Positions 34,971 to 57,192 of a DNA stretch of 59,027 nt are shown in pieces. Under the pieces are notes generated by a model. It was not told the origin of the DNA and searched no databases. It saw nothing but the letters and a program-made list of their open reading frames with translations. Every line of letters starts with the position of its first letter. The stretch's first letter is position 1. The stretch is taken from the NCBI GenBank assembly GCA_003222055.1, contig QHUT01000057.1:1-59027 (forward strand). Direction: 5' to 3'. A program made the position numbers and the translations under genes. This DNA comes from Gemmatimonadota bacterium. Its GTDB lineage: Bacteria > Gemmatimonadota > Gemmatimonadetes > Gemmatimonadales > GWC2-71-9.

Positions 34971-35074
34971 GGAGGTTGGGGAGGTTCGGGAGGTTGTGGA
35001 GGTTGGAGCAGGTTGCATCGCGCACGGAGCAACCTCCTCCAACCTCCCCCAACCTCCAGAACCTCCCGAACCTC
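34971..35074. repeat. Tandem-repeat hairpin element D
   Basis: The left arm 34971-35014 is a run of GGAGGTT-based units spaced about 9 nt apart. The right arm 35031-35074 is a run of AACCTCC-based units, so the arms are imperfect reverse complements of 44 nt around a 16-nt loop. It fills the gap between the outer-membrane protein stop and the PilB start and might act as a terminator. Confidence 0.85.
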
Positions 35075-38667: not shown

Positions 38668-38677
38668 GCGCCCTGGT

Positions 38678-38701
38678 GTCTTGGCGTCTTGGCGTCTTGG
38701 C
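38678..38701 (+). repeat. Tandem 8-mer between trpE and the cyclase gene
   Basis: GTCTTGGC is repeated three times exactly, followed by GTCTATC, ending 15 nt before the GTG start of the cyclase gene. TATCTT at 38705-38710 directly after the array could be a -10 box, placing the repeats where a -35 element and activator sites would be. Confidence 0.75.
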
Positions 38702-38716
38702 GTCTATCTTTTCGCT

Positions 38717-42977: not shown

Positions 42978-42995
42978 TGCCCCCACCCCACCCTA

Positions 42996-43112
42996 ATGCG
43001 GAGTGCGGAATGCGGAATGCGGAATTGCAGAGCAGGGTTCGATCGCAAGGATTTGCTCCGCGGCTCGACGCGCGCGCGATCCATTCCGCATTCCGCACTC
43101 CGCACTCCGCAT
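42996..43112. repeat. Heptamer hairpin element C
   Basis: The left arm 42996-43025 is made of (A/G)TGCGGA units and the right arm 43083-43112 of (T/C)TCCGCA units. The 30-nt arms are reverse complements with a single mismatch, around a 57-nt loop that itself contains a weak palindrome. It lies between glmS and dtd, ending 5 nt before the glmS stop codon. Its TTCCGCx unit recurs inside glmM at 45478-45519. Confidence 0.9.
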
Positions 43113-43117
43113 TTGCA

Positions 43118-44956
<1,839 letters not shown>

Positions 44957-45016
44957 CGTGGGGAAGAATAACACTTCCAGAGCCGCTGTTGCGCGGCGGC
45001 AGCGGAGGGGCAGAGA

Positions 45017-45268
45017 TTGTGGTACATGCTGCCAACGTGGATTCGCCCGCTCGGGCTCGCCGAGCACCTCATCGTGGGCGCAGGGCTCACGGCCGTGCTC
45101 GCGGCCCTCGGCACGCCCGCCCTGGCACGGGTCGTCGCCGTCGCCGCCGTGGGCGTCGCGCACGAGCTGGGCGACGGGGATTTCACCACGGCCCAGGGCG
45201 CGCCCTGGAACGGCATCATTGATGTGCTGGCGTTTCTGCCGGTGCCCTTGGTGTGGTGGGCGCTATGA
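45017..45268 (+). CDS. Small integral membrane protein
   Basis: The 83-residue protein has two or three hydrophobic helices (around 17-33, 36-48 and 67-82) and a conserved-looking VAHELGDGDF between them. GGAGGGG at 45004-45010 is correctly spaced for the TTG at 45017 and too far for the ATG at 45026, so the ribosome binding site favours TTG. Its 3' end overlaps the end of glmM by 6 nt. Function unknown. Confidence 0.55.
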   Translation: MWYMLPTWIRPLGLAEHLIVGAGLTAVLAALGTPALARVVAVAAVGVAHELGDGDFTTAQGAPWNGIIDVLAFLPVPLVWWAL

Positions 45269-46678
45269 GGCCGATGCCGCGCACAGCCGCCGCCCTTCGT
45301 CCACGAGGTCCCGCGCCAGAGCCCCGGTCGGTGCTTCGGCGATCAGCCGAATGATCGGCTCCGTGTTCGACGGCCGCACGTGCAGCCAGCGGTCGCGCCA
45401 GGCGAGCCTCAAGCCGTCTTGCGTGTCGACCGTCGCGTCGGGAAACCGGCGCCGCAAGCCCGCATACACGTCCTCCATTCCCTGTTCCGCGTTGCGCCTT
45501 CCGCGTTCCGCCTTGCCTTTGACGATCACGTAGCGCGGCGCCCCGGCCACGACCTCGCTCACGCGCTTGCCGTCGCGCGCGAGCAGCGCGAGCAGCAGCG
45601 CGGCGGCGACCGGCGCATCCCGCCCCGCGTGCAACGCCGGGTACATTACGCCGCCATTCCCCTCCCCGCCGATGACAGCCGCAAGCCGCAAGATGGCGCG
45701 CGCGACGTGGACTTCGCCGACGGGAGTCCGAACGACCTCCGCACCGCACTCCCGGGCCGCATCTTCCACGACCAGGCTCGTCGAGAGGTTGCAGACGACC
45801 GTGGGCTTACTCGTCCCTCGTCCCCCGTCCCTCTTCCCGAGCACAGCTCGCACCGCGAACGCGAGCGTATAGTCCTCGCCGATCGGCGCACCGGTTTCGT
45901 CGACGATCGCCAGGCGATCGACGTCCGGATCGACGGCTAGCCCCGCGTCCGCGCCCGAGCGCCGCACTAACGCGGCGAGGTCTCCGAGGTTCTCCGGGAT
46001 CGGCTCCGGCCCGCGGGGGAATCGACCGTCGGTCTCGAGGTTGAGCCCCGTGACGCGGCAGTGCAGCTGCTCGAGCAGGTCGCGCATCGGGGGGCCGCCC
46101 GCCCCGCGCACCGCGTCCAGCGCCACCGCGAACTTGCGCTTGCGAATGCCGTCGATGTCGAGTCCGGGGAGGCGGAGGACGGCCGCGAGATGGCGCTGCA
46201 CCGCGTCGGGATCCACCGCCACCCGTCCCTCGTCCCTCGTCCCTCGTCCCCCGTCCTGCGCGACGAGCTCCGCGACACGCTTCCCCTCCGCCCCGTCCAG
46301 GAAGATCCCATCCGGTCCGATGAATTTCAGGGCGTTCCACTCGATGGGATTGTGGCTCGCGGTGATCGCGATCCCGCCGCCCGCGTGGTGGTGCTCGACG
46401 GCGAGCTGCACCGTGGGCGTGGGCACGAGGCCGACGTCGATCACATCGCAGCCGACGGAGGTCAGCCCGGCGGTCACGGCGGCGGCGAATGCGGGGCCCG
46501 ACGTCCGCGCATCACGCCCGACAACCACGGACGTCCTCTTCCCCCTTCCCTCGTCCCCCTTCCCCTCACGGGCCCACGTCCCGAACGCCCGCGCCCAACG
46601 CGTCACCACTTCCGGGGTGAGGTCCTTGCCCACGATCCCGCGCACGCCGGAGACCCCGACCATCAACGTGTCGGTCAT
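45263..46678 (-). CDS. glmM: Phosphoglucosamine mutase / phosphomannomutase-type enzyme with repeat insertions
   Basis: The 471-residue alpha-D-phosphohexomutase converts glucosamine 6-phosphate to the 1-phosphate (GlmM role inferred from glmS nearby). It has the phospho-Ser108 in TASHNP, the metal loop DPDVDR (250-255), the sugar loop GGEGNGGVMYP and the phosphate-binding RPSNTEP. Four low-complexity segments interrupt it at about 37-48, 142-152, 281-291 and 387-401. They are encoded by heptanucleotide arrays and sit where relatives have short loops. All catalytic motifs remain, so the enzyme is probably active. Confidence 0.9.
   Translation of the reverse strand: MTDTLMVGVSGVRGIVGKDLTPEVVTRWARAFGTWAREGKGDEGRGKRTSVVVGRDARTSGPAFAAAVTAGLTSVGCDVIDVGLVPTPTVQLAVEHHHAGGGIAITASHNPIEWNALKFIGPDGIFLDGAEGKRVAELVAQDGGRGTRDEGRVAVDPDAVQRHLAAVLRLPGLDIDGIRKRKFAVALDAVRGAGGPPMRDLLEQLHCRVTGLNLETDGRFPRGPEPIPENLGDLAALVRRSGADAGLAVDPDVDRLAIVDETGAPIGEDYTLAFAVRAVLGKRDGGRGTSKPTVVCNLSTSLVVEDAARECGAEVVRTPVGEVHVARAILRLAAVIGGEGNGGVMYPALHAGRDAPVAAALLLALLARDGKRVSEVVAGAPRYVIVKGKAERGRRNAEQGMEDVYAGLRRRFPDATVDTQDGLRLAWRDRWLHVRPSNTEPIIRLIAEAPTGALARDLVDEGRRLCAASAS
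45478..45519 (-). repeat. Heptamer array in glmM, 3' copy
   Basis: Six 7-nt units in register (plus strand TTCCCTG, TTCCGCG, TTGCGCC, TTCCGCG, TTCCGCC, TTGCCTT), 42 nt in total. The array encodes the KGKAERGRRNAEQ segment. The unit matches hairpin element C, 2.4 kb away. Confidence 0.85.
45811..45838 (-). repeat. Heptamer array in glmM
   Basis: Four 7-nt units (plus strand TCGTCCC, TCGTCCC, CCGTCCC, TCTTCCC) encoding the GKRDGGRGTS loop. Confidence 0.85.
46223..46257 (-). repeat. Heptamer array in glmM
   Basis: Five 7-nt units (plus strand CCGTCCC, TCGTCCC three times, CCGTCCT) encoding the DGGRGTRDEGR loop. Confidence 0.88.
46537..46564 (-). repeat. Heptamer array in glmM, 5' copy
   Basis: Four 7-nt units (plus strand TCTTCCC, CCTTCCC, TCGTCCC, CCTTCCC) encoding the EGKGDEGRGKR loop between the first helix and the VVVGRD strand. 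Confidence 0.85.
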
Positions 46679-52246: not shown

Positions 52247-54541
52247 TCACTGCACCACCCGCACGGGCGTGAGGCTTGTAACCGTCGTCCCGTTGCCGAG
52301 TTGGCCGAACAGGTTGTCGCCCCAGCAATACACGCCGCCGCTCGGGGTCGCGCCACACGTGTGGTCGCCGCCCGCGGAGACGACCGCGAACGTGAGGCCG
52401 CCGGCCACGGGTACGGGGCTCACGCGGCCGCCGGTGGTGCCATCTCCAAGTTGTCCGCTGGAATTGTCGCCCCAGCAGAAGGCGTTCCCGCCCGCGGTCA
52501 CGCCACAACTATGCATACGTCCGGCACTAACTGCCGTGAACCTGAGCCCACCAGCGACAGGTTCGACGCTTCCTCGGCTGGTGGTCGTCCCGTCTCCCAA
52601 CTGCCCTGTGGTGTTGTCGCCCCAGCAATACCCGGCGCCATCCGTGCCCACGCCGCACGTGTGCAGCCCGCCGGCACTCACCGCGACGAAGGTCAAGGTG
52701 CTCGCCACGGGCCGCGGCGGGAACCAGCTGACCGTGGACGGATCGCCACCCTGGCCCTCGAGGTTTCGACCCCAGCACCATGCCTGACCTGTCGTGGTCA
52801 CGCCGCACGTGTGGTCCCCGCCGGCGCTGACCATGGTGAAGCGCAACTCGCTCACGATGCGGCCCGGGCTCGGCCGGCCCGCAGTCGTGTCCCCGGTTGC
52901 GCCCCAGTAGTTATCGCCCCAACAGTACGCGTCGCCGTTCGCCGTTACGCCGCACGTATGGAGGCGACCGGCGCTGACCAGCGCGAACTTGAGCCCGCCG
53001 GCCACGGCCACCGGGCTCGTGAACCAGCGGGGGAAAAACGCTCCTTCACCCAGCTCCCCATCCCAGTTGTAGCCCCAACAGTACGCGACCTGGCTCGTGG
53101 TTACGCCGCACGTGTGCAGCGATCCCGCGCTGACCGCTGACAGGCTAAGGCCCCCGGTGACGGGCACGGGGGTCGCCCGGTGCGTCGTCGTCCCGTCCCC
53201 CAGTCCGCCCCAGTAGTTGTAGCCCCAGCAGTAGGCCGTGCCGCGCGTCGTCACGGCGCACGAGTGCGACAAACCGGCGCTCACGCTGGCGAAGCTGAGA
53301 TGGCTGGCGCTGAACGGCGCGCTCGTCGCACCGCCGAATCCGAGCGCCGTGGCGACGAGCGTGTAGCCCCGCCCCGGCCGGTCCACCCGCAGGTCGGCGA
53401 ACGTCGCGATGCCGTCCACCGCCGCCACGGTCGTCGCCCCCAGGAGGACGGCGCTCGCAGGGTTCGCCGTCAGCGCGATCGTCACCGTGTCGGTCGCGCC
53501 CATCATCGGGTTCCCGAGGGAGTCCTCGATCGCGATCCGCACGGGGGGGGAGATGGCGACGTCGACGTCGATCGTCTCCGGGGGTTGCGTCGCGAAAGCG
53601 AGCACGCCGCGCGGCGCCGGCGCGGCCGGCGACCAGCTGGGCTGCGCGTCAGACGTGGTGCCGGTCGTCAGCCGCGCTTGCCCGGAGCCGTCCGCGTTCA
53701 TCACGTAGATCGCCCGATTCCCGTCTCGGGTGCTCGTGAAGGCGATCTGCGTTCCGTCGGGGGACCACGTCGGGTCCGTGTCGGAGAAGCCGCTGTTCGT
53801 CAACTGCGTCTGGGCGGAGCCGTCGGCGGCCATGACATAGATCGCGGCACTCCTCGTGAAGGCGATCCGGAGCCCGTCGGGCGACCAGCTCGGGTCACCT
53901 TCGGCATTGGGAACGTTCGTCAGCAGCGTTTGGGCCGAGCCGTCCGCGTTCATGACGTAGATCTGCGGCACGAAGTCGCGGGTGCTTCGGAAAGCGATGC
54001 GAGCCCCGTCGGGAGACCAGCTCGGTGCGTTGTCGGTTGCCGGATCGGTCGTGAGGGGCGCCTGTCCAGACCCATCCGCGTTCATCACGTAAATGTCGAA
54101 GTTGCCATCGCGGTTCGTGGTGAACGCGATCCGGCGTCCGTCCGGGGACCAGGTCGGCTGGCCGTCCGCCGCGGGATTGTCCGTCAGGCGCGTCGGCGCG
54201 GAGCCGTCCGCGGCCATGACGTAGATCTCGGCGTTGCCGTCCCGCGTGCTGGTGAACGCAATGCGACTGCCGTCGGGAGACCAGCTCGGGGTGCTGTCAG
54301 CAGCCGGCGCGTTGGTAAGTCGCGTCAGGCCCGATCCGTCCGCGTTCACCACATAGATCTCCCAGTTACCGTCCCGGTCGCTCGCAAACGCGATGCGGGA
54401 CGCGGCCGTGGCGGCGGTCAGCGCGCTCGGCGGGGACGGCGTGCGCGGACGCGTGGGCTCGTCGGTGCAGGTCGTGGCGAGGAATGCGGCGATCGCCAGT
54501 CGCGCGGCCGCCGGGAACGGGATCGAGGCCCGCCCGCTCAC
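52247..54541 (-). CDS. Surface lipoprotein: TolB-like PD40 propeller, Ig-like domain, RCC1 repeats
   Basis: The 764-residue protein has a lipoprotein-type signal (TTCTDEP). Seven TolB/PD40 repeats follow ([18 protein letters not shown] and YVMNADGSA units, about 45-330), then one Big_1-like domain (about 335-425) and seven RCC1-like repeats ([24 protein letters not shown]; about 430-764) forming a second propeller. The GTG start overlaps the stop of its upstream paralogue (GTGA). Propeller plus Ig architecture suggests a surface-exposed binding protein; no catalytic motif is seen. Confidence 0.85.
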
Positions 54542-57192
54542 TGGACCACCTGGACCGGCGCAATGGCGTGGCTCCCGATCGTCCCGTTACCGAGCTGGCC
54601 CTGGTCGTTCAAGCCCCAGCAATACGCCTTGCCGTCGGACGTTACGCCGCAGGTGTGAGCGCCCCCGGCGCTGATCGCCACGAAGCTGAGCCCACCCGTT
54701 ACGGGGAGTCCCTGAGGCGCCGTGTCGCCGCTCGGGTATCCCGTTCCACGCTGCGTGTAGGTGTCCTCACCCCAGCAGTACGCCGCGCCCGCCGTGCCCG
54801 CACCGCAGGCGTGCACAGATCCCGTGCTCACGGCCGTGAAGTGGACGTCGGGCGCGGCCGGCTGCCGTTCCGGCGTGTAGCCGGCGTCGAAGCCCCAACA
54901 GTACACCGCGGCGTCCGTGGTCACGCCGCAGGTGCTCTTATAGAGACCCGCGCTCACCGTCGTGAACGTGAGTCCGCCCGCGACTGGGACGAAGGTAAAC
55001 GGCCCCGTGGTCGTCGTCGTTCCATCCCCGAGCTGGCCCACGTCGTTGATCCCCGCACAGTACGCCTGATGGCTCGAGGTCACGCCGCAGGTATGATCTT
55101 CGCCCGCGCTCACCACCGCGAACGCCAATCCGCCCGTATTCATGGGTGTCGGAGTCGGTCCTTCGCCCCCATAATCGCCCCAGCAATACCACGCGCCGCT
55201 GGTGGATCGGCCGCACGTGTGCCGTCCGCCGACGCTCACGGTGGTGAAGAGGACGCCGCCCGGGACAGCCTCCGGGCTCAGACCCCAGCAGTACGCCGCG
55301 CCGCTTGTGGTCACACCGCACGTCTTCGTGTTCCCTGCGCTGAGCGCCGCGAAGCGCAGGCCTCCCGCCACCAGGACTGGGCTGGGCCGATTGACCTGGG
55401 TCCCGTCGCCGACCCGGCCGCCGATGCCCCAGCAGTACGCCGCGCTGCTCACGGTCAACGCGCACGAGTGCCCGAAGCCGACGGTCACGGTGCGGAATGT
55501 GAGACGAATGGCGAAGGGGGTGCTCGCGGCCCCCGTCAGCGCCGCCGACGTGGCCGACAGTGTGTACCCGCTCCCCGGCCGGTCCACGCTCACGTTGTCG
55601 AACGTCGCGATCCCGTCCACCGCCTGCACCGTCGTCGTGCCCGCGAGCGTCCCCCCGCTCGGGTTCGCCCCCAACGCCAGCGACACAGCCTGCGTCGCGC
55701 CGGGCACCGTGGTGCCGAACGCGTCTTGAAGCGCGACACGGACCGCCGGCGCGATGGCGACGGCCCCCTCGAGCGTTTGGGGAGGCTGGGTCGCGAAGGC
55801 CAGCTGCGCCGGCGGTCCCGCCACCGCGAACGCGCCGCTCGCGCCGGATGCGGGACCCGCCGTCGCGACGAGCGTGTAGCCCCGTCCCGGCTGGTCAATG
55901 CGCAGATCGGCGAACGTCGCAACGCCGTCGACGAGCTTCGCCTGCGTCGTGCCCGACAGTGTCGCCCCGGGCGCCGGACTCGTCCCGATCTCGAGGCGCA
56001 CCACGCCCCCAGGGATCCGGCTCCAGGAGGCGTCCGTCACCGTGACCTGGATCGCGGGGGAGATCACCGCGTTGGCGTTGACTGTCGCCGGGGGTGGAGC
56101 GGTGAAATCGACGTGCGCCGGCGCGCTGCTCGGACGGTACGCGGGCGACCAGCTCGGGTCCGTGTTGTCGCCCGGAGTGTTCGTGAGCCGCGTCGGCCCC
56201 GATCCATCCGCGTTCATCACGTAGATCTGCGCGCCGCCGTCCCGGTGACTCGTGAATGCGATCTGGCGACCGTCGGGGGACCAACTGGGCCCCTCGTCGG
56301 CGCCCGCGGCGTTGGTCAGCCGCGTCTGCGCCGAGCCGTCCGCGTTCATCACGTAGATCTCGACGTTCCCGTCCCGCGTGCTCGTGAACGCGATCCGGCT
56401 CCCGTCGGGGGACCAGCGCGGCGACCCATCCTCGGCCGCATTGTTCGTCAGCCGCGTCTGCGCCGACCCATCGGCGTTCATCACGTAGATCTGGGCGGTA
56501 CCGTCCCGATGGCTCGTGAATGCGATCCGGCTCCCGTCGGGGGACCACCTCGGCTCCTCGTCGGCCCCCGGGGTGTTCGTGAGCCGTGCCTGCGCCGACC
56601 CGTCGGCGTGCATCAAGTAGATCTCGGTGTCGTCATCCTGCGAGGTCGAGAACACGATCCGACTCCCGTCCGGCGACCACTGCGGGTCCCGGGCGGTGCG
56701 GTGGAAAGGCGTGTGCGTCAACGCCGTCTCCGCCGAGCCGTCCGCGGCGATCCGGTAGACATCGACGTTGTCGGCCAGGAATCGCGTGAACGCGATCGCT
56801 TGCCCGTCGGGCGACCACGTGGGCCGGCGGTCGCCCCACCAGGAGTCATGGCTCGTCAGCGCCGTCACCGTCGATCCGTCCGGGGCCATGACGTAGAGGC
56901 AGTCGCAACGGCCTCGCTGGCTGACGAAGGCGATCCGGTTCCCATCGGGGGACCAGCTCGGCTCATAGTCCCATTCGGGGACGTTCGTCAGCCGCGTTTG
57001 GGCCGACCCATCGGAGGCCATCACGTAGATCTCGCGGTTGCCGTCTCGCGTACTCACGAACGCAATGCGCGCCGTGGACGGGTCGGCACCCCCGGCCGCC
57101 GCGGACATGCGCGGCGCCGTTACCTCGTCGCGGTGGCAGGCCTGCGGAACCGCTATGGCCAGGAGGACACACACGGCGAGCAAGCGACGCAT
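54538..57192 (-). CDS. Surface lipoprotein paralogue: PD40 propeller, two Ig-like domains, RCC1 repeats
   Basis: The 884-residue protein has the same domain order as the next gene: lipobox PQAC (about residue 19), eight PD40 repeats (about 40-350) and two Big_1-like domains (about 360-550). Degenerate RCC1-like repeats with paired Cys (CALTV/YCWG pattern) run to the end. Both proteins end in the same VVQ tail. It is the promoter-proximal gene of a two-gene unit, probably born by tandem duplication. Three PD40 units at 56214-56609 have an exact 132-bp period at DNA level. Confidence 0.85.
56214..56609 (-). repeat. 132-bp tandem repeats encoding PD40 units
   Basis: Three consecutive copies of a 132-bp unit (44 codons) begin at 56214, 56346 and 56478 with TCATCACGTAGATCT and stay highly similar throughout. 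More diverged copies lie on both sides. The similarity at synonymous positions indicates recent duplication or gene conversion. Confidence 0.8.

Follow-up and report, generated by a model that had tools for sequence, protein, structure and literature searches.

Heptanucleotide arrays in the glmM gene of a Gemmatimonadota bacterium probably belong to a genome-wide population of G-rich tandem repeats

Four tandem arrays of G-rich heptanucleotides were found inside the glmM gene of a Gemmatimonadota bacterium, and they are probably part of a genome-wide set of G-rich tandem arrays present in one clade of soil Gemmatimonadota. The window, the whole stretch of 59,027 nucleotides that was analysed, is contig C5 of a 3.69-Mb genome in 173 contigs (code G000). 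Its close relatives with names are Gemmatimonadetes metagenome-assembled genomes (MAGs), many of soil origin, and the relatives compared here were metagenome assemblies with one genome per species. Literature searches found no description of such arrays in Gemmatimonadota.

Results

The glmM gene, encoding a phosphoglucosamine mutase of the phosphohexomutase type, is an intact open reading frame of 471 residues on the reverse strand of the window (45263–46678), and its product matched PF02878 (Pfam, E 6e-38) and phosphohexomutases in the PDB (E 1e-88). The home-made gene finder that was used over-extends gene starts, and gene-specific claims were based on Pfam and cross-species alignment. The adjoining glmS-like frame (43118–45163, reverse strand), named from its sequence as a glucosamine-6-phosphate synthase, contained no array when scanned, and no Rfam match was obtained at glmS/glmM. 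The original prediction of four arrays inside the one glmM gene was confirmed, with the G/A-rich strand being the coding strand in all four. An AlphaFold2 model of the protein, built with 27 relatives, had a mean pLDDT of 90.8.

Site 1 (46537–46564, reverse strand, residues 39–48) consists of the units GGGAAGG, GGGACGA, GGGAAGG and GGGAAGA, translated as GKGDEGRGKR, and is modelled as a coil between a helix at residues 22–38 and a strand at 50–55, with a pLDDT of about 59 that falls below 50 at residues 41–45. Site 2 (46223–46257, reverse strand, residues 141–152) has four exact GGGACGA/G units and one partial unit, giving GGRGTRDEGR, and is a predicted coil joining a helix to a strand (pLDDT about 75). 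Site 3 (45811–45838, reverse strand, residues 281–290) is built of GGGAAGA, GGGACGG, GGGACGA and GGGACGA, reads GKRDGGRGTS and is modelled as a coil between a helix at 271–280 and a strand at 293–297, with a pLDDT of about 57 dropping below 50. Site 4 (45478–45519, reverse strand, residues 387–401) contains partly decayed units of the heptamer GCGGAAC that encode KAERGRRNAEQG, and residues 384–399 are predicted with a pLDDT of about 90 to form the end of a strand and a helix. Three 7-nt units give a seven-residue repeat, as had been calculated.

In the alignment, sites 1 and 3 are longer than in relatives outside the clade and site 4 is longer by about five residues. At site 2 the protein length is near normal, since GlmM proteins outside the clade have an ordinary segment of similar length (PPRAGWDGIG type) at this position; the array has replaced this segment and has not lengthened the protein. 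The expectation that each array lies where phosphohexomutases normally have a short turn was thus not confirmed: sites 1, 2 and 3 are all modelled as coils, but site 2 took the place of a normal segment, and site 4 is modelled as structured.

The four arrays are far beyond chance. Codon-shuffled versions of glmM contained a mean of 0.085 period-7 arrays and none of 1000 shuffles had three or more, compared with five period-7 matches when the real gene was scanned for this test, four of which are the reported arrays. Since the arrays are short relative to sequencing reads and the homologous glmM sites hold arrays in many independent MAGs, an assembly artefact is an unlikely source of them.

Comparison of glmM between species revealed that the contents of the four sites differ. 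Site 1 was empty in five relatives and held GGGAAAC, GGGATGC, GGGACGR or TCGG-type units in others. The units at site 2 were either 7-mers or 10-mers, depending on the congener. At site 3, a hot spot, the relatives had 7-mers, 8-mers, 9-mers or whole hairpins of 8-mers, so that gain and replacement recur. The GCGGAAC array of site 4 was common to most array-bearing relatives from several genera. Most members of the clade have arrays at sites 2 and 4, which seem to be ancestral there, with units that changed in place. In the relatives the glmM reading frame stayed open through the arrays, and further species added to the comparison gave the same picture. Arrays were not invariant in related genera, the nearest approach to this being the recurrence of GCGGAAC at site 4. 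The original view of a repeated, independent invasion of one gene is consistent with the recurring sites and the turnover of units, seen in the empty or filled site 1 and the hot spot at site 3, but the process is genome-wide and involves many core genes, and some sites (2 and 4) appear to be ancestral.

The wider population of arrays was examined in a sample of about 12% of the genome (459 kb, in blocks), and the GGGAMGR sites of the genome were taken one by one. The sample contained 33 period-7 arrays compared with 2 in a Markov control, and no excess of such arrays was present in G022 and G029, two relatives of the same family. Genome-wide, exact three-unit matches to GGGAMGR numbered 73 in G000 and 1 in the reversed control, with 0, 33, 35 and 54 in the relatives G001, G009, G035 and G011, respectively; GCGGAAY gave 15 matches in G000, 51 in G009 and none in the control. 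The usual form of an array is four 7-nt units, or about 28–31 nt, and units of 8, 9 and 10 nt are also present. Among 44 GGGA(A/C)G(A/G) arrays of G000, 27 had four units, 16 had three and one had five. These arrays contain four G3 tracts, and the other units have GG tracts only.

A simple dicodon score was used to make coding calls for the 44 arrays. By this score 23 lie in an open frame with a coding signal to either side, the purine strand being sense in 19 of them and antisense in 4 (one-sided binomial probability about 0.001), and the remaining 21 are intergenic or at gene edges. The purine-rich strand encodes Gly/Arg/Glu/Lys when in sense, while the other strand gives Ser/Leu/Val/Pro/Arg, so that antisense arrays specify peptides of the SSPVPRP type. 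Arrays were located by Pfam and inspection inside MnmE, HflX, RarA, the CCA-adding enzyme and an SDR, and further array-bearing genes include those for CMP kinase, riboflavin synthase, Dxr, AlaRS and hydantoinase B, among others. Many of the arrays fall within a Pfam domain of a conserved protein or between two such domains. The suggested check of whether GTRDEGR-type loops are present in other genes thus gave a positive answer.

Other repeats were seen in the same genome. Arrays of 8-mers (AGACGCC(A) and GGCGTCTG) occur in several places, among them 38674–38705 of the window and L069 8380–8915, one being at a predicted gene start. Two regions of the window, 56142–56680 and 53990–54289, carry about 4 and 2 copies of codon-periodic 132-bp tandem repeats and probably encode repeat protein.

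Many arrays are arranged as inverted pairs. In 0.86 Mb, 32 strong inverted repeats had tandem arms with periods of 7–10 nt compared with 5 others, and the Markov control gave none; the G/A-rich arm was 5′ in 30 of the 32, and the median arm was 28 nt. One such pair, of GCGGAAT/GCGGAGT units, adjoins the end of glmS in the window at 42995–43113 (arms 42995–43025 and 43083–43113, 57-nt spacer). The corresponding spot is a GCGGAAT hairpin in G000, a GCGGAAC hairpin in its sister G009 and a hairpin of 10-mers in G001; judged by eye, the three spacers are different. The four glmM arrays of G000 are unpaired. An intergenic inverted pair of 9/10-mer GGAGGTTGG arrays at 34971–35074 of the window represents another unit length of the same kind.

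In-frame inverted pairs were found in MnmE (GGGACGR, L072 5163–5293), HflX (CGGATTG, L074 9769–9953) and RarA (GGGAAAG-like, L074 12027–12185). In each of these proteins the two arms belong to different loops and are separated by conserved protein-coding DNA, which in HflX and MnmE includes the GTPase [N/T]KxD motif. Because the arms flank conserved host coding DNA, insertion of a single hairpin cannot have produced them, and the idea of invasion by a discrete mobile unit was not borne out.

Both HflX arms were present in all 10 clade species compared, and within each species the unit was identical in the two arms. The unit was CGGATTG in G000, G024 and G003, GCGGAAC in G009, G008, G007 and G019, GCGGAAT in G005, GCGGAGT in G002 and GGGATGC-like in G001. 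The unit type cuts across the tree, in that the sisters G000 and G009 differ in both arms (CGGATTG and GCGGAAC) and G009 matches G008 and G019. Arm complementarity was 21.9 within species compared with 11.7 between species, and when species were treated as independent none of 20000 permutations was as high; in outgroups that have no arrays the corresponding loops gave 5.0 within and 5.3 between species. This pattern fits a joint change of unit in the two HflX arms, either by arm-to-arm copying or by selection for pairing. In MnmE only G000 and G009 had matched arms, most other species combining a first arm of 7-mers with a second arm of 8-mers, and the weaker permutation signal (40/20000) was driven by these two genomes. 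Homogenisation of arms is not universal, because the MnmE arms are unmatched in most species.

A 24-nt element, CCTAAAGGACTYCCTGACGGTCGC, sits inside 7- or 8-nt arrays of the relatives. It is inserted at unit junctions, sometimes in both arms of a hairpin, and at most copies the array is still in register once the element is removed. A length of 24 nt gave the best fit in all 8 copies that reached a periodicity score of 0.7. The element comprises eight codons, is frame-neutral and reads PKGLPDGR. Copies were located in L273–L295 (G024, G001, G019, G006 and G004), with further copies in L177 near 2425 (reverse strand) and in L198 and L201 near 3430; it occurs inside MnmE of G024 and in GlmM site 2 of two relatives. 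An exact match to CCTAAAGGACTYCCTGACGGTCGC was absent from G000.

When the arrays were compared with described repeats, the nearest were the dispersed G-rich heptamers of Xanthomonas and Nostoc, and on this analysis the G000 arrays would be best filed as a variant of them. Rehm et al. (2015, PMC4692102) describe GGGAATC and GGGGA(C/T)T repeats that are dispersed on both strands with a mode of four units, often form convergent inverted pairs, vary between related species, are 89–93% intergenic and rare on the coding strand, and have no known function. They share with G000 the many dispersed tandem heptamer sites (73 GGGAMGR matches against 1 in the control), the preference for four units (27/44) and the convergent inverted pairs (G/A arm 5′ in 30/32). 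They differ in being mainly intergenic, whereas 23 of the 44 G000 arrays are coding, 19 of them in sense and many in conserved enzymes, and in the Gemmatimonadota clade several unit families of 7–10 nt coexist, turn over at the same sites and have arms that covary.

The TAACTGA heptamer arrays of Beggiatoaceae and cyanobacteria have 2–6 copies at many sites, mostly just upstream of start codons and nearly all direct, and have a proposed translational role (PMC4679880). They resemble the G000 arrays as short heptamers at many sites but differ in their single unit, position and direct orientation. Small dispersed repeats of cyanobacteria were reportedly found by Elhai et al. in 2008 to insert into tandem heptamers; the position of CCTAAAGGACTYCCTGACGGTCGC in register inside heptamer arrays of the relatives is similar in the habit of insertion.

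Rickettsia palindromic elements are in-frame insertions in ORFs, formed by palindromes of about 100–150 nt with a family consensus. They likewise give rise to repeat-derived peptides in conserved proteins with the frame kept, whereas the present arrays have no consensus beyond the 7–10-nt unit and their spacers can be host coding sequence, as is the conserved sequence between the arms of HflX and MnmE; a palindrome inserted as a unit was not found there. At quasipalindrome template-switch loci (PMC8604942, PMC7202029) inverted arms become alike, also in coding genes, and such homogenisation was seen at HflX (0/20000 permutations) and more weakly at MnmE (40/20000). Those loci are described for short arms with few changes, whereas in this clade the change between species involves a complete tandem arm, about 28 nt long. 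Mitochondria of Nematomorpha have coding palindromes with both arms encoding conserved protein regions (PMC6649704), which are similar as inverted repeats inside genes with both arms coding, but in G000 the arms are tandem arrays that form variable loops.

Discussion

What was observed comprises the presence and number of the arrays, their four-unit mode, the three loop sites in glmM, the integrity of the frame, the turnover of units and the matching of the HflX arms. An explanation needs one process that makes the units within an array alike, another that makes inverted arms alike, and tolerance in protein loops. Overall, the better-supported reading is that these are tolerated loop arrays that evolve in concert through slippage and template switching. 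Slippage during replication within an array would make its units alike, and a new unit would spread to the partner arm when the polymerase switches template from one inverted arm to the other (quasipalindrome correction). Template switching between short inverted-repeat arms has been documented in E. coli and in yeast coding genes (PMC7202029, PMC8604942). Selection would keep only those changes that preserve frame and fold, and this may explain the purine-sense bias, the purine strand encoding hydrophilic Gly/Arg/Glu/Lys peptides. Arrays could reach new sites by copying from elsewhere or by local birth from G-rich seeds. The glmM inserts are most likely near-neutral for the enzyme, and no role is proposed for them.

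Some features fit this explanation poorly. With slippage alone, copy numbers should vary widely and not peak sharply at four units, and purely local processes do not explain one unit at dozens of dispersed sites per genome. The arm covariation could also result if a hairpin, in RNA or in DNA, were selected for. The sharp mode, the 5′-purine polarity and the single dominant unit of each genome leave room for mobility or for selection on structure.

A stronger version, in which four-unit arrays spread themselves to new sites and between arms, rewrite surface loops of essential enzymes in concert throughout the genome and serve as the landing site of the 24-nt, frame-neutral mobile element, is conceivable but doubtful. 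Mobility in general, in which a host factor would make copies of short G-rich arrays (or of hairpins) at new sites and the survivors would be found in loops, as in the original view of repeated, independent invasion, is unlikely. It would account for the dominance of one unit at many dispersed sites and its difference between sister species, for a glmM site 1 that has no array in some relatives and arrays of differing units in others, and for the fixed length of about four units, and the precise insertion of the 24-nt element in relatives demonstrates that insertion occurs in this setting. However, no constant ends or target duplication were recognised, glmM site 2 is a replacement rather than an insertion, and the paired arms in HflX, MnmE and RarA flank conserved host sequence. 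Nor are Y1/RAYT genes flanked by arrays. REPIN/RAYT mobility was rejected: 20 Y1 loci had no tandem-armed inverted repeats around them, two having REP-like palindromes, and the array-rich G001 and G007 had no Y1 matches. These REP-like palindromes (AACCCCGGGGC type), inverted pairs beside Y1/RAYT genes at L112 1867–2031 (G024) and L118 1326–1469 (G019), form a separate repeat system. Loss of repair was also rejected as a cause, MutS and an SbcD-like protein being found in array-rich and array-poor relatives alike, though the test is a weak one, since nearly all SbcD-like matches fell below the curated cut-off in both groups.

Selection on nucleic-acid structure is less probable again. Here RNA or DNA hairpins or G-quadruplexes would have a part in transcription, mRNA stability or translation and would merely be tolerated in the protein loops. 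The covarying HflX arms, the arm polarity of 30 to 2, the four G-tracts per array and the hairpin that immediately follows glmS in three species, each with a unit of its own, are all compatible with such selection, as are the G4 folding and the same four-unit mode that Rehm et al. found for GGGAATC arrays (PMC4692102). Against this, the four glmM arrays are unpaired in G000, the MnmE arms are mostly unmatched, several units have GG tracts only and no Rfam match was obtained; Rehm et al. moreover found that ORFs carry fewer of their repeats on the coding strand than expected, opposite to what is seen in G000 (PMC4692102).

An origin at the protein level, in which Gly/Arg/Glu/Lys-rich loops would be favoured and codon choice would give rise to the DNA repeats incidentally, would fit the recurrence of charged flexible loops in many proteins and the 19 to 4 purine-sense bias, but is very improbable given that the repeat periods (7, 8 and 10 nt) do not correspond to whole codons and that the same units occur outside genes and in antisense, where they encode SSPVPRP-type peptides. 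Least credible is a contingency locus in which copy-number slippage switches GlmM on and off (phase variation): intragenic tandem repeats can switch genes, and gain or loss of a single 7-nt unit would cause a frameshift, but copy numbers cluster closely around four, the arrays affect housekeeping and not surface genes, and relatives keep the frame open through the arrays.

This clade has non-triplet DNA repeats that are read in frame within many conserved enzymes, and the units in a given loop are specific to the species. These loops are natural replicated experiments in how the dynamics of DNA repeats feed the evolution of protein loops, and they bear on arm-to-arm copying in bacteria and on why four units are preferred in unrelated phyla. 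If the arrays did prove to be self-spreading, they would represent a route by which repeats drive the evolution of protein loops and which has not been described before.
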